Shown: in pieces, positions 17,752-56,341 of the stretch
Layout: every line of letters starts with the position of its first letter
Numbering within the stretch: the stretch's first letter is position 1
Assembly: GCF_900182905.1 (NCBI RefSeq)
Contig: NZ_FXUF01000003.1
Coordinates: forward strand, 62,001 to 126,000
Origin: Anoxynatronum buryatiense
Lineage (GTDB): Bacteria; Bacillota; Clostridia; Peptostreptococcales; Tindalliaceae
Reading direction: 5' to 3'
DNA length: 64,000 nt
Notes under the pieces: generated by a model
The model's input: the letters and a program-made list of their open reading frames with translations, nothing else
Database searches by the model: none
Told to the model about the DNA's origin: nothing
Program-made: the position numbers and the translations under genes

Positions 17752-19005
17752 TTATTTAACATAAACGGGGCTCATGAGAAGGTCTGGATCTCCATGCAAA
17801 AAAGACTTATGGAGCAGTTTTGCACCATAAATTCGACTGGCCTTGAAGTCTATGTCCAGTAACTGATTGATTTCAGGAGAAGCTGTTTGGAAATTGGCCA
17901 TTTTGTTGATAAGCGGTATTTTTGCGGTGGCTTGACAAGTTCGGATTAACTCCCTTCCCCTGTCATTGAAAGCAAGAATGCGGCCATATGTTGAAGATGT
18001 GTCATGCTGGTATGTTGCCAGTTGGTTTCGGTTGAGATTTAATAGCAAATGGATGAGCATTCTTTGCAAACGAGTGTATGGCACTCGTTTGTTTTTGACG
18101 CAAAACATGAATTCTTCAATGGAGCCTGCTTTTTTAACGCATTTCATGATTCGATGTTCAAGTCCTTCAGAAATATCTGGAAGGTTTGCAAACTCGCAAA
18201 TACTGGAACGCTTTAAAAGTGTCAGAAGCTCCTGATGATAATCATCATGAAACACCGGCCCGCGACCTTCGCTAATACCACAAAGCAACCTTTCATAAGC
18301 TTGGGAAGGCAGAAAGGGTTTGATGGAAGATACATCTCCAGTATTATGGTAAAGGCGTCGGATGCCTGTCGCACTGCTAATGGAATGCACTGTTGTTGGA
18401 TCATGATATTCGGCTCCGATGCGCTGAATGGTGTGCAATGCCATAGAAGAGCCTGTTTTGATGATGTGCTTGGCATAAGCCATACCCAGCACATTATTTG
18501 GTCGATTAAAGACCTGTTTGGCCAATGGCAGTTTTTCTGGGAAATCGCGTTCAATGATATATATCAGGGCTTTTTCCTGAGCGGCAGCAAAAGGAATGCC
18601 TGACGATAGAGCTTTTTTTAAATAATAGGAATAGTCAGGATGTGGATCGGCCAGTAAGAACCCAATAAGTTTAAAGATGGCCGGATCGCCTATTTCACTT
18701 CCGAAGCATACATCGGTCACGCACCCCAACTGATCAAGCAACAGAATGCTGCCACGTGCAAACTGTTCAGCTGTTGAACAAGCAAAAATAGTAGGCAGTT
18801 CAAGCACAAGATCGACACCACAAGCCACAGCCATTGAAGCTCGGGTCCATTTGTCGGTGAGGGCAGGCTCTCCCCGCTGCATAAAATGTCCGCTCATCAC
18901 AGCCACGGTATGAGTTGCGCCAGTGATTTTTTTTGATTCGTTCAAATGATGAAGATGACCATGATGAAAAGGGTTGTATTCCGTTATAAGTCCCAGAATA
19001 GGCAT
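17752..19005 (-). CDS. tmcAL: tRNA(Met) cytidine acetate ligase TmcAL (YlbM)
   Basis: Makes N4-acetylcytidine at the wobble base of elongator tRNA(Met) using acetate and ATP. A nucleotidyltransferase fold opens with ITEYNPFHHGHLHHL (HxGH adenylate site, residues 7-20), then VMSGHFMQRGEPA and CGVDLVLELP. 417 residues, near the Bacillus length. On the minus strand, ATG at 19005 follows AAAGGCGG. Its acetate substrate links it to ackA next door. The end faces the coiled-coil gene with a nine-base gap and no visible terminator. Confidence 0.92.
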   Translation of the reverse strand: MPILGLITEYNPFHHGHLHHLNESKKITGATHTVAVMSGHFMQRGEPALTDKWTRASMAVACGVDLVLELPTIFACSTAEQFARGSILLLDQLGCVTDVCFGSEIGDPAIFKLIGFLLADPHPDYSYYLKKALSSGIPFAAAQEKALIYIIERDFPEKLPLAKQVFNRPNNVLGMAYAKHIIKTGSSMALHTIQRIGAEYHDPTTVHSISSATGIRRLYHNTGDVSSIKPFLPSQAYERLLCGISEGRGPVFHDDYHQELLTLLKRSSICEFANLPDISEGLEHRIMKCVKKAGSIEEFMFCVKNKRVPYTRLQRMLIHLLLNLNRNQLATYQHDTSSTYGRILAFNDRGRELIRTCQATAKIPLINKMANFQTASPEINQLLDIDFKASRIYGAKLLHKSFLHGDPDLLMSPVYVK

Positions 19006-50028: not shown

Positions 50029-50418
50029 ATGAAGGCATATGAACTTAAAATTAACTCAGCCATCAGTCCTGTTCAGCCGGCTGCAGGAAACCCCAAAATC
50101 ACGTCGGCAACCGATGATGGCAACTCTTTCAAGCACGTTTTAAACGAACATGTGCAAAGACAGCACCATGTGGTTTTTTCTAAACATGCCACCGAAAGAT
50201 TGATGCAGCGAAATATTATACTGACACCTCAGGAAATACTGCGTATCGATGCTGGCATCAGTCAGGCAGCGAAAAAAGGAATTAAAGAGACACTGATTAT
50301 GATGGATAATCGTGCATTCATTGCCAGTGTGAAGAACAAAACAGTGATTACTGCTACAGTTGAGGATCAATTAAAAGATCAGGTTTTTACCAACATCGAT
50401 GGAGCAGTGATTGTCTAA
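50029..50418 (+). CDS. Flagellar operon protein (TIGR02530 type)
   Basis: A 129-residue protein of the small flagellar-operon family found between flgD and flgE in Firmicutes. Its core is FSKHATERLMQRNIILTPQE (near 48-67), with conserved His and Arg residues, then SQAAKKGIKETLIMM and a beta-rich end. Function unknown; position suggests a role in hook building. Start ATG 50029 after GGGAGGCG. Confidence 0.85.
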   Translation: MKAYELKINSAISPVQPAAGNPKITSATDDGNSFKHVLNEHVQRQHHVVFSKHATERLMQRNIILTPQEILRIDAGISQAAKKGIKETLIMMDNRAFIASVKNKTVITATVEDQLKDQVFTNIDGAVIV

Positions 50419-50426
50419 AGCGAACA

Positions 50427-50455
50427 ACAAGCCGGACCACATGGTGGGGGCTTGT
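50427..50455 (+). other. Stem-loop upstream of flgE (1)
   Basis: ACAAGCC (50427-50433) pairs with GGCTTGT (50449-50455), and an inner CCAC/GTGG (50437-50440 / 50444-50447) extends the hairpin. No T run follows. It lies nine bases after the preceding stop codon. Confidence 0.7.
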
Positions 50456-50479
50456 CACTTCCGACTGACAGAGGAAGTG
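50456..50479 (+). other. Stem-loop upstream of flgE (2)
   Basis: CACTTCC (50456-50462) and GGAAGTG (50473-50479), a 7-bp stem with a 10-base loop, directly abutting the first stem-loop and ending 11 bases before the AGGAGG site of flgE. It may stack on its neighbour as a 5' end stabiliser. Confidence 0.65.
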
Positions 50480-50505
50480 AACCAACTCATAGGAGGTCAT
50501 GTAAG

Positions 50506-51900
50506 ATGATGCGATCAATGTTCTCTGCTGTGTCGGGCCTGCGGGCTCATCAGCTTCGTATGGATGCCATCGGCAATAACATAGCGAACGTCAACACAGT
50601 GGGATATAAAGCAAACCGGGTGACTTTTCAGGAAGTCTTTAACCAAACCCTGAGAGGCGCTGGGTCACCCCAGGCGGGCCTTGGAGGTACCAATCCGCAG
50701 CAGGTGGGTCTGGGGATTAACGTGGCATCCATGGATACCTTTCATATTCGTGGAGCTGTGGAACGAACCGATTACAATACAGATATGATGATTAATGGCG
50801 ATGGTTTTTTCATCGTTTCCAACGACGCCAACTTCCTCAACCGAAGCTATACCCGCGCCGGCAGTTTTGCCCTTGACCGAGACGGCAATATGGTTACCCC
50901 GGACGGATATCGGGTACTGGGGTATATGGCAGACAATGAAGGTGTTCTGGGAAGCAATCTGGAAGGATTAGTTATCTCAAAAGCTCAATCATTTCCGGCA
51001 GAAGCAACAGACCGCGTGGGATATGAAGGCAATTTGAACAGTGAAGCACCTATTTGGGCGGGCGATATTGTAGACCCAGCAGGGATATATTCGATTGTTG
51101 ACGATCGTCTGGTTGTTAATGCAGGTATGGAACAGTACATTGCCCGTGAAACAACCTTTGAGGTATATGATGGACTGGGCGGTATTCACCGTATTAAGCA
51201 AGTTTTTGTTAAAACTGGAGTGGATAATACAGACCCAGATAATCCCATCAGTGAATATTCGATGGAAACCTTCTACCTAAACAAAGATGGTACTGTCATT
51301 CAGGCAGGAGGAGCAACAGGAGGAGCTGTCACTGACCCGCCAACTGCACCGACAACAAGTCCAACAATTGAGTTTGATAAAGATGGCAGGCTTACTGGCA
51401 CAACAACAACCTTAAATCTTTCGATTGGTGCAGGACTAACCAACGGAGCAGGTGTTTTACCATTTACGATAAGTTTTGCAGGTTTGACCATGTTTGCCAA
51501 CGAATCCACGGCTTCAGCTCCGAATATCAACGGTTTCAAACAGGGGACACTGGAAGACTTTTCAGTAGCCTCAACAGGAGAAATTACTGGATTCTTTGAT
51601 AATGGCCAAAGCCGGATCATCGGTCGTGTTGCTCTGGCAAACTTCAAAAATGCGGCAGGTCTTGAGAAAACCGGCAGCAACCTGTACCGTGTCACCAACA
51701 ACTCAGGTCAGGCCATCATTGGTGCACCTGGGGCGGGTGGATTTGGCGGACTAAATCCCGGAGCTCTTGAAATGTCAAATACAGACTTATCAAGAGAGTT
51801 CACCAACATGATCACTACCCAGCGTGGTTTCCAGGCGAATTCTCGTATTATCTCCACCAGTGATGAGATGCTGCAGGAAGTTGTTAACATGAAACGATAG
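50506..51900 (+). CDS. flgE: Flagellar hook protein FlgE
   Basis: Main subunit of the hook. N-terminal MMRSMFSAVSGLRAHQLRMD and NNIANVNTVGYKANRVTFQE, central DMMINGDGFF and YTRAGSFALDRDG, and C-terminal TDLSREFTNMITTQRGFQAN, all standard. About 464 residues, with an insert rich in Thr/Pro/Gly near 270-300. The frame opens at TTG 50452 within a hairpin, but AGGAGG at 50491-50496 marks ATG 50506. It is bracketed by stem-loops on both sides. Confidence 0.96.
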   Translation: MMRSMFSAVSGLRAHQLRMDAIGNNIANVNTVGYKANRVTFQEVFNQTLRGAGSPQAGLGGTNPQQVGLGINVASMDTFHIRGAVERTDYNTDMMINGDGFFIVSNDANFLNRSYTRAGSFALDRDGNMVTPDGYRVLGYMADNEGVLGSNLEGLVISKAQSFPAEATDRVGYEGNLNSEAPIWAGDIVDPAGIYSIVDDRLVVNAGMEQYIARETTFEVYDGLGGIHRIKQVFVKTGVDNTDPDNPISEYSMETFYLNKDGTVIQAGGATGGAVTDPPTAPTTSPTIEFDKDGRLTGTTTTLNLSIGAGLTNGAGVLPFTISFAGLTMFANESTASAPNINGFKQGTLEDFSVASTGEITGFFDNGQSRIIGRVALANFKNAAGLEKTGSNLYRVTNNSGQAIIGAPGAGGFGGLNPGALEMSNTDLSREFTNMITTQRGFQANSRIISTSDEMLQEVVNMKR

Positions 51901-51917
51901 GTTCAACAGGAAATGAG

Positions 51918-51943
51918 TCCGGGAGCCGTTAACGGCTCCCGGA
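51918..51943. repeat. 26-bp perfect palindrome between flgE and flbD
   Basis: TCCGGGAGCCGTT joined to AACGGCTCCCGGA: 13 bases each side, perfectly self-complementary, the most GC-rich hairpin seen in the window. As RNA it gives an 11-bp stem with a TTAA loop. No T run follows, so it is not an intrinsic terminator. It probably protects or divides the mRNA after flgE. Confidence 0.9.
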
Positions 51944-51965: not shown

Positions 51966-52148
51966 ATGATCAGGCTCAAACGCCTCAATCAAAGCGAAAT
52001 AGTCATTAATGCCGAACTCATTCAAGCGATTGAAGAAACACCGGATACTGTGATCACACTAACCAATGGTCAGAAAATCGTTGTGGCTGATTCTATTGAC
52101 GAGATTCTGGAAAAGGTTATTCAATATAAACGAAACATACATATTTAG
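51966..52148 (+). CDS. flbD: Flagellar protein FlbD (SwrD type)
   Basis: Small 60-residue FlbD/SwrD protein; in Bacillus SwrD raises motor power for swarming. Motif EETPDTVITLTNGQKIVV is typical. ATG 51960 is too close to AGGAAG (51953-51958), so ATG 51966 (MIRLKRLN) is the likely start. It precedes motA, which fits a role with the stator. Confidence 0.9.
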   Translation: MIRLKRLNQSEIVINAELIQAIEETPDTVITLTNGQKIVVADSIDEILEKVIQYKRNIHI

Positions 52149-54174: not shown

Positions 54175-55170
54175 TTGGCAGATGTTTTGTCACAAAGCGA
54201 GATAGATGCGCTTTTGGCGCAGTTGAGCAGCGGTGAAGTTGATGCTGACGAAATGAAAGATGTTCAGCAGGACAAAAAAATTAAACTGTACGATTTTAAA
54301 AGTCCTAAAAAGCTGGCAAAGGATCAGTTGAGGACCCTGCAGATTATTCACGAAAATTTTGCCCGGTCATTAAATACGTTTCTTTCCGGATACTTGCGCA
54401 CCTATATTCATGCCGAGGTCAAGAACGTTGAAGAGCTGTCCTATTATGAGTTCAGCAACTCCGTGGTTAATCCTGCGGTATTGTCAATTGTTAATTTTCA
54501 ACCTTTATCAGGTCAAATCATTGTTGATCTGTCACCCTCAATTGCATTTAATATTATAGACCGCATCCTGGGAGGCAGTGGAAAACCGTTCAATGAATCG
54601 CGAACTTTTACTGAAATCGAGTTAACCCTGATCAAAAAGCTGAAAAGACAAATCATCGCACTGATGGAGCAGCCCTGGGAAAATGTGGTTGAACTTAATC
54701 CCAAGTTGGACAAAATTGAAACGAACTCCCAGTTTGCACAAATCGTTTCTCATAATGAAACGATTGCACTGGTGACGCTGAGTCTGCGAATAGGTGAAGT
54801 GGAAGGTCTGCTCAATATTTGCCTGCCCCACTTGGTGATTGAACCTATTATCGACAAACTGAGCACCCGGTTTTGGTTTGCAAGTATTTCAAAATCAGTG
54901 ACTGAAGATGATAAGTTGAAGCTTCAAAAGCGTGTTGAAAAAACACGGGTTGAAATAGGAGCCGAGTTGGCACATACGCACATTACTGTTCGTCATTTTC
55001 TGGAAATGCAGGTTGGCGATGTGATTGGTCTCGACACTCCGACTGATGGCGAATTGATTCTTTATGTGGGAGATAAAATGAAATACAGAGGTGTGCCGGG
55101 TACCAGTAATAACCATTTAGCTGTGAGAATCACGAGTAAAGAAGAGAGAGGGGATGAACTTGATGAGTGA
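54175..55170 (+). CDS. fliM: Flagellar motor switch protein FliM
   Basis: Switch protein that binds CheY-P through its N-terminus, LSQSEIDALLAQLSSG (residues 5-20). A CheC-like middle domain (about 40-230) contains GGSGKPFNESRTFTEIE, and a SpoA domain ends it. 331 residues. GTG 54166 lies in the AGGAGGTGA ribosome site, so TTG 54175 is the start. Confidence 0.95.
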   Translation: MADVLSQSEIDALLAQLSSGEVDADEMKDVQQDKKIKLYDFKSPKKLAKDQLRTLQIIHENFARSLNTFLSGYLRTYIHAEVKNVEELSYYEFSNSVVNPAVLSIVNFQPLSGQIIVDLSPSIAFNIIDRILGGSGKPFNESRTFTEIELTLIKKLKRQIIALMEQPWENVVELNPKLDKIETNSQFAQIVSHNETIALVTLSLRIGEVEGLLNICLPHLVIEPIIDKLSTRFWFASISKSVTEDDKLKLQKRVEKTRVEIGAELAHTHITVRHFLEMQVGDVIGLDTPTDGELILYVGDKMKYRGVPGTSNNHLAVRITSKEERGDELDE

Positions 55171-56341
55171 TATGTTATCCCAGGAAGAAATTGATGCTCT
55201 GTTGAGCGGTGGAGATTCATCTGATGATGAACCATCATCAGAAGCGGCAACGACTGAAGAAGAAATTTATTTTTCAGAGCAGGCCAAAGATACGATCGGT
55301 GAAATCGGCAATATTAGTATGGGAACAGCGGCAACCACGTTATCAACATTGTTGAATAATAAAGTGGTGATTACAACACCCAGAGTTGCATTAATGAGTC
55401 TCAAAAACCTTTCAAAGGAATATCCACTTCCTTTCGTTGGTGTTGAAGTGCGCTATAAAGAAGGGATTAAAGGCACTAATTTAATGGTGCTGAAAGAATC
55501 TGATGTGAAAATTATCACTAATCTTATGATGGGTCAGTCACCCGAGGCGACAGACGATCCGATTTCTGACTTGCATTTGAGTGCCATTGCTGAAGCGATG
55601 AATCAAATGGTGGGATCATCGTCAACTTCCCTGTCGGAAATGTTTATGAAGAAAATCGACATCAGCCCCCCAAAAGCATTTCAACTTGATTTACAGACAC
55701 CAAATCTGAATCAGCATGTATCAGACTTGGATGAGACTTTTGTACGCATTGCTTTCAAAATGGAAGTTGGAGACTTGATTGACAGTGAAATCATGCAGTT
55801 GATTCCAATTGATTTTGCCAATGAGATGGTTCAAACGTTGATGCCTGAAAGTGGTGGATCAGAGGCTCCAACTACGACGGCACCACAGCCAATGCCAGCG
55901 GCAAATGATGACTTCATGATGGACTTTGATGAAGCGACAATGCCGACAGCACCGGCGATGCAACCGCCTGCCACACCTCAGCGGCAGTCAACACCGCCGC
56001 CAGTTGCTCAGCCACAGCCAAATGTGAATGTTCAACCTGCTCAGTTTCAGTCTTTTGACGATACTGCATCAGGGACCGCCATTCCTGAAAATATTGCCTT
56101 AATCCAGGATGTCCCGTTAAAAGTGACTGTTGAACTGGGACGAACTGTAAAACGTGTGAGTGAAGTGTTGGAGTTTGGACCGGGTACAATTGTTGAACTC
56201 GATCGTATTGTGGGAGAGCCGCTGGATATACTGGTTAATGGTCAATATGTTGCTAAGGGTGAAGTAGTGGTCATTGATGAAAACTATGGCATCCGAGTGA
56301 CAGACATTGTTAATCCCAATAAGCGTTTCTCGAAGATATGA
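55163..56341 (+). CDS. fliY: Switch phosphatase FliY (FliN domain)
   Basis: Switch protein that also removes phosphate from CheY-P. N-terminal MSDMLSQEEIDALLSGG repeats the FliM CheY-binding motif. Both CheC half-sites are intact: DTIGEIGN with Pro 23 residues on, and SAIAEAMN with Pro 23 residues on. A Pro/Ala/Gln-rich linker (about 235-300) leads to a C-terminal SpoA/FliN domain with VPLKVTVELGRT. 392 residues. ATG 55154 touches the GAGAGGGG site; 55163 fits better. Confidence 0.94.
   Translation: MSDMLSQEEIDALLSGGDSSDDEPSSEAATTEEEIYFSEQAKDTIGEIGNISMGTAATTLSTLLNNKVVITTPRVALMSLKNLSKEYPLPFVGVEVRYKEGIKGTNLMVLKESDVKIITNLMMGQSPEATDDPISDLHLSAIAEAMNQMVGSSSTSLSEMFMKKIDISPPKAFQLDLQTPNLNQHVSDLDETFVRIAFKMEVGDLIDSEIMQLIPIDFANEMVQTLMPESGGSEAPTTTAPQPMPAANDDFMMDFDEATMPTAPAMQPPATPQRQSTPPPVAQPQPNVNVQPAQFQSFDDTASGTAIPENIALIQDVPLKVTVELGRTVKRVSEVLEFGPGTIVELDRIVGEPLDILVNGQYVAKGEVVVIDENYGIRVTDIVNPNKRFSKI

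Follow-up and report, generated by a model that had tools for sequence, protein, structure and literature searches.

Production of the flagellar hook protein has to be correct in both quantity and timing, and to our knowledge it is not well explained how Gram-positive bacteria control hook output inside one long operon. A 64,000-nucleotide stretch of the Anoxynatronum buryatiense genome (hereafter, the window) raises this question at its flgE gene, which is flanked by hairpins in the order fliK, flgD, TIGR02530, a two-hairpin element, flgE, a further hairpin, flbD, a motA-like gene, and more flagellar genes (the names of motA and the later genes are taken from reading the ORFs). The initial annotation suggested that these hairpins bracket flgE and guard, or cut out, its part of a long mRNA. 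We consider it fairly probable that positions 50426-50508 belong to an undescribed cis-regulatory RNA family that governs FlgE post-transcriptionally, as well as FlgG in approximately half of the carriers, with TIGR02530 as its likeliest ligand.

Structured flanks of flgE in the window

The features of the locus are listed in Table 1. The protein encoded directly upstream of the hairpins scored 113.3 bits against the TIGR02530 equivalog model, compared with a curated cut-off of 83.2 bits. The flgE product, whose gene starts with the ATG at 50506 and ends with the stop codon at 51898-51900, was best described by the FlgE model NF004241 (E 9.3e-111), yet it lies under that model's own cut-off.

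Table 1 Features of the flgE locus, in window coordinates
Feature	Position	Strand	Support
TIGR02530 / PF12611 (Flagellar_put) gene, 129 aa	50029..50418	+	NCBIfam TIGR02530 E 6.5e-33, PF12611 E 1.5e-10
Hairpin H1	50427..50455	+	Covariation; model R1 match 50426-50508
Hairpin H2	50456..50479	+	Double changes at all 7 modelled stem pairs (25 sequences); loop G/A near invariant
flgE Shine-Dalgarno AGGAGG (50491-50496) and spacer; common AGGAGGTC context	50491..50505	+	Alignment A1
flgE, flagellar hook protein, 464 aa	50506..51900	+	PF07559, PF06429, PF00460
Perfect 26-bp palindrome / 11-bp hairpin 3' of flgE, without T run	51918..51943	+	
flbD (swrD-like), small flagellar gene 3' of palindrome	51966..52148	+	PF06289 FlbD E 6.5e-28

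Both adjoining stems that had been drawn before the flgE ribosome site indeed fold there. H1 (-13.4 kcal/mol, shuffle z -2.65) consists of a 7-bp outer stem (ACAAGCC/GGCTTGT) and a 4-bp inner stem (CCAC/GTGG), separated by a 3x1 internal loop in which GGA (50434-50436) lies opposite G (50448). H2 (-8.8 kcal/mol, shuffle z -2.86) consists of a 7-bp stem (CACTTCC/GGAAGTG) and the hexaloop CTGACA (50465-50470), which is flanked by GA..GA (50463-50464 and 50471-50472). Folding energy would not single out the upstream pair (z of -1.89 for the entire leader); it stands far above chance because the same two hairpins precede flgE in relatives, as revealed by the comparison of gaps that the initial annotation had called for.

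The palindrome, which begins 17 nt past the flgE stop as claimed, is perfect. It folds into a hairpin with a 4-nt loop (-23.3 kcal/mol, z -6.6, 0/200 shuffles) and is the longest perfect stem in the 64 kb with a loop of 3-12 nt. None of the three stems is followed by a T run. The palindrome thus lacks the mark of an intrinsic terminator, as GTACCTGAAAGG comes directly after its stem.

A two-hairpin RNA before flgE and flgG

Covariation was first evaluated in alignment A1, which comprises 25 loci before flgE: the window's own and 24 from relatives. Standard pairs accounted for 94.5%, both sides had changed in 12 of the 16 base pairs, and double-change cells numbered 84 vs 30 in shuffled alignments, with the sliding controls collapsing. 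Among 100 diverse members, in an alignment fitted to model R1 and thus biased towards structure, 93.9% were paired, double changes were found in 14 of the 16 pairs, double-change cells reached 519 vs 162 shuffled, and the score was 0.758 vs 0.221 (sliding controls <=0.125). The two hairpins before flgE are a conserved structured RNA, supported by covariation.

In this RNA, the stems are free to vary and the loops are fixed. The H1 consensus is GCYGGACC…GGRRGC with a GGA/R internal loop, in which GGA faces one purine; H1 keeps a G-C, C-G core, and its inner C-G pair is identical in 100/100 members. The H2 stem is closed by GA-MYGAYN-GA, a pattern consistent with tandem G-A pairs around the hexaloop, as judged from the sequence. 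The loop G/A positions of H2 are near invariant among 165 elements, a set gathered by an expression that itself demanded letters, so that the claim of strict conservation rests on the 25- and 100-sequence alignments. We also considered a switch in which GACC of H1 pairs with GGTC at the ribosome site. It was rejected as a family rule because GGAGGTC/GGAGGTT occurs in only about two thirds of the elements.

A single clear copy of the element was detected in the genome that holds the window (50426-50508; E 4.4e-19 with model R1 and 2.2e-19 with model R2). Across the order, model R1 found 100 carriers in 297 genomes, and across the phylum 143 in 398. This model was too narrow, since 38 TIGR02530-positive loci were read because it had missed the element there or placed it elsewhere, and all 38 carry it when examined without filters. 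The broader model R2 detected it in 281/398 phylum genomes at E<=0.01 and in 271/398 at E<=0.001. Carriers found by a DNA-pattern scan include Lachnospiraceae, Ruminococcus, Thermoanaerobacter, Moorella, Veillonellaceae, Litchfieldia, and Rossellomorea, as well as single MAGs assigned to other phyla.

At nearly all loci, the downstream gene is flgE. More than one copy was found in 130 of the 271 carrier genomes; the second copies seen initially precede flgG, the gene for the distal rod protein, and so do 18 of 18 further ones, usually after flgF. A single RNA element, carried by about 70% of the 398 sampled phylum genomes, is common to hook and rod genes. Six genomes (G331, G357, G446, G543, G587, and G625) have three copies each. 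The sole clearly different target seen was in an uncultured UBP15 bacterium, where a good copy (L200:1935-2026, minus strand) precedes neither flgE nor flgG but a gene whose unknown product contains proline-rich stretches (MSLDRIDNSNMYLAMLQ...).

Searches against Rfam 15 returned no matches in the window over the gathering threshold, and only two chance-level matches at E up to 10, neither of them at the element; in 10 diverse loci, the element likewise matched no family. Similarly, our literature search found no paper naming TIGR02530 and none on a flgE leader RNA in Bacillota. The main text of a study reporting thousands of microbiome RNA candidates leaves flagella unmentioned, though its supplements may contain an unnamed listing (PMC8040213). 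As captured by models R1 and R2, the element is a previously undescribed flgE/flgG leader RNA family, absent from Rfam 15, and adds a structured RNA family to those collected there.

The TIGR02530 protein as a candidate reader of the element

TIGR02530 was found in 280 of the same 398 phylum genomes, and the element is near one-to-one with it across this sample: 268 genomes have both, 115 have neither, 12 have the protein only, and three have the RNA only (Fisher p about 1e-81, uncorrected for relatedness). The 12 protein-only genomes are so classed by model score; one of them (G656), when read, has the element with one inserted base. The three RNA-only genomes are fragmented assemblies with the element at flgF/flgG loci and no clear flgE in any, and two of them (G567 and G629) are 84% and 79% complete. 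Within the order sample, every TIGR02530-positive genome with a readable flgE leader has the element, four genomes (G014, G036, G043, and G056) have flgE and neither TIGR02530 nor the element, and one (G051) has no clear flgE. In eight more flagellated phylum genomes without TIGR02530, no element was found near the FlgE/F/G genes (best E 0.014).

Much of this co-occurrence could reflect shared descent of an operon block, since TIGR02530 usually adjoins the element. Family f9 includes genomes with both and genomes with neither, and the both-or-neither pattern in families f9, f50, and f148 argues for repeated joint loss. Furthermore, in G007 (L340, G007:C1:1933200-1936000), TIGR02530 lies downstream of flgE and the element is still upstream of flgE, where it directly follows another ORF.

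We next examined the protein itself. TIGR02530 was found in 0 of 14 control genomes, E. coli and B. subtilis among them. AF2 predicted an 86-residue domain with a beta-alpha-alpha-beta-beta-beta arrangement (pLDDT 91.7). In a structural second look, the first 21 rows were all of RelE/ParE/HigB type, with Z from 6.0 down to 4.7; the best match covers 71 residues with an rmsd of 3.4, at a Z that unrelated models often exceed, reaching 7-8. Foldseek returned nothing at E<=0.001 (best E 0.29, an unrelated BLUF protein), and a sequence search against solved structures gave nothing useful. DUF4258 matched weakly, under its threshold, in 27 of the 54 members of alignment A2, which holds the TIGR02530 proteins of the window (50029-50415) and its relatives. 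T4 RegB was rejected as a specific relative because its signal is too weak (two members at E 0.0057, Z 3.6). Taken together, the C-terminal domain may be marginally RelE-like, below the level at which kinship would be asserted, and the DUF4258, RegB, and RelE-like matches hint that the flagellar operon has co-opted a protein of toxin fold. Four residues (H53, R57, R61, and K83) are invariant; that they contact RNA is speculation.

Based on these observations, we propose that the fixed loops (GGA/R in H1 and GA-MYGAYN-GA in H2) would form a docking site upstream of the served gene, and that the TIGR02530 protein, encoded next door and with a predicted RelE/ParE-like arrangement in its C-terminal domain, would read it. 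Binding would keep flgE/flgG translation, or what becomes of that mRNA segment, matched to the level or assembly stage required; we infer this regulation and the sign of its effect. More tentatively, and with somewhat less than even confidence, Bacillota may possess a hook/rod checkpoint in which a toxin-fold TIGR02530 protein binds or cuts the two-hairpin RNA and gates FlgE/FlgG synthesis by assembly state. The uncharacterised TIGR02530 family thereby gains a testable job.

The mode of control would be like that of CsrA-FliW at flagellin. In Bacillus subtilis, a protein acting on the leader of the hag (flagellin) mRNA matches subunit synthesis to assembly. Both cases concern Gram-positive flagella and a protein bound to the leader of a flagellar mRNA (proposed, in the present case); however, our element serves hook and rod genes, differs in RNA sequence and structure, and does not track CsrA, and the TIGR02530 protein matched no CsrA or FliW model in Pfam and NCBIfam scans. 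The checkpoint, if true, would be the hook counterpart of the flagellin-FliW-CsrA switch. ANTAR targets likewise have two adjacent hairpins read by one protein, with hexaloops in both and usually an overlapping terminator. The element resembles them in its two adjacent hairpins and its proposed single protein reader, but the apical loop of H1 varies widely in length (alignment A1) and there is no terminator, so it does not conform to the ANTAR pattern. The TIGR02530 domain may share its predicted strand and helix order with the RelE/ParE superfamily, the source of its top structural rows; the Z is marginal, and the proposed role is regulation rather than growth arrest.

In another phylum, the stage of assembly is reported to control Salmonella FlgE after transcription (Bonifield 2000, cited in PMC4032328). 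The target protein is the same there.

The hairpin downstream of flgE and alternative readings

Examining the gap after flgE revealed a strong hairpin in all 46 relatives in which it was measurable (mean -24.1 vs -10.3 shuffled). About 11% of these hairpins are followed by a T run, and their position is conserved but not their sequence. When the 90 nt that follow flgE are folded, 84% of loci reach -16 kcal/mol vs 13% of shuffles, and no hairpin excess over shuffled was found after flbD or before TIGR02530. Copies of the element at flgG have no consistent 3' hairpin, and one locus (L366) has a hairpin after flgE though its genome lacks the upstream element. Because the 3' hairpin has no conserved sequence and occurs without the element, and because the element occurs at flgG without the hairpin, we regard the two flanks as separate devices. 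The initial suggestion thus needs to be divided. Our findings agree with control that acts after transcription on flgE alone, as one part of a long mRNA, and the palindrome probably serves the flgE segment as a barrier at its 3' end or as a processing site; they do not agree with bracketing by a single device, as the upstream pair is a sequence-specific element.

Along the lines of the initial annotation, these flanks could also form an RNA processing and stability cassette, in which RNases cut at or near the upstream hairpins and stop at the palindrome, so that the flgE piece outlives its neighbours and more hook is made. Both sides of flgE are structured in the window, and the one at the 3' side is a strong hairpin that is specific to flgE and usually has no T run. 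Moreover, in Campylobacter jejuni, RNase III processes the flgE-FlmE RNA just 3' of flgE and an sRNA is released (PMC11187230). The likeness is a structured RNA immediately 3' of flgE; the difference is that C. jejuni releases an sRNA, whereas here the hairpin sequence varies and position alone is conserved. Given this processing and the reported control of Salmonella FlgE, both ideas have precedent elsewhere. Nevertheless, a plain stability stem would place no demand on its loop sequence, whereas GGACC and GA..GA..GA hardly vary; flgG has the 5' element without a 3' hairpin, and the 5' element tracks one protein family. We therefore regard the cassette as unlikely.

The position of the element relative to its neighbours bears on two further alternatives. 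The upstream stop codon is mostly 3-7 nt 5' of GCYGG in the loci measured, and the distance from GCYGG to the flgE start ranges from 70 to over 250 nt, exceeding 130 nt in 10/42 loci (starts were found by motif, so that the largest distances are rough). Distances this long fit poorly with a simple block of the ribosome site. In the 18 further copies at flgG, the element is always near the start codon. Long spacers, some of them repeat-rich, are inserted between the element and the flgE ribosome site in four loci (L282, L298, L330, and L331), and three loci from family f33 genomes (L288, L289, and L308) have an extra inverted repeat, CCGGAT...ATCCGG, in the same interval. In many lineages, a third helix joins the final TIGR02530 codons (..GGN GCN GTN AT..) to the linker that leads to the ribosome site, with a mean duplex of -8.24 vs -5.84 +/- 0.17 for swapped partners and many differing yet matching pairs at one place. 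It is absent from the window's own family, and was left out of the core element for this reason.

The short interval after the upstream stop and the third helix are what would be expected of a coupling or standby structure that needs no protein partner and that ribosomes ending the upstream gene would open, tying flgE translation to upstream translation. This is improbable, as the window's family lacks the third helix, the copies at flgG lie behind flgF or have no gene close upstream, the element of G007 follows another ORF, and the invariant loops are left unexplained. The tolerance of distance from the start codon would, in turn, suit a label that directs flgE/flgG mRNA to the flagellar export gate, so that the proteins are made beside the secretion channel. 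Both genes encode exported axial proteins, and in C. jejuni CsrA-FliW is reported to control the polar localization of flagellin mRNA (PMC4894983). However, no copy of the element was seen at other exported axial genes, and we consider such an address signal quite improbable.

Very little probability attaches to a CsrA-binding leader, in which the H1 GGA and the AGGAGG ribosome site would form a CsrA double site. The GGA is nearly invariant and CsrA is present in the window's genome, but CsrA also occurs in the four flagellated, element-less genomes of the order sample, and G002 (97% complete) has the element with CsrA not found. In addition, the H1 GGA is in an asymmetric internal loop rather than a hairpin loop, and the conserved H2 loop would go unexplained. 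CsrA was accordingly rejected as the ligand, as the distributions do not match. Least credible is a small-molecule riboswitch: the element is compact, conserved, and near the ribosome site, but at nearly all loci the downstream gene is one of just two kinds, the element tracks one protein near-perfectly, and no alternative terminator or anti-SD helix is conserved among the 165 elements.

Two other stems were noted in the window. A 10-bp stem at 18067-18091 is followed by TTTTT and resembles an ordinary intrinsic terminator. Another 10-bp stem (TCTGATGATGAACCATCATCAGA, 55220-55242) lies inside the start of a fliY/fliN-like ORF (55154-56341), in an Asp/Ser/Glu-rich stretch where codon repetition alone may account for it.
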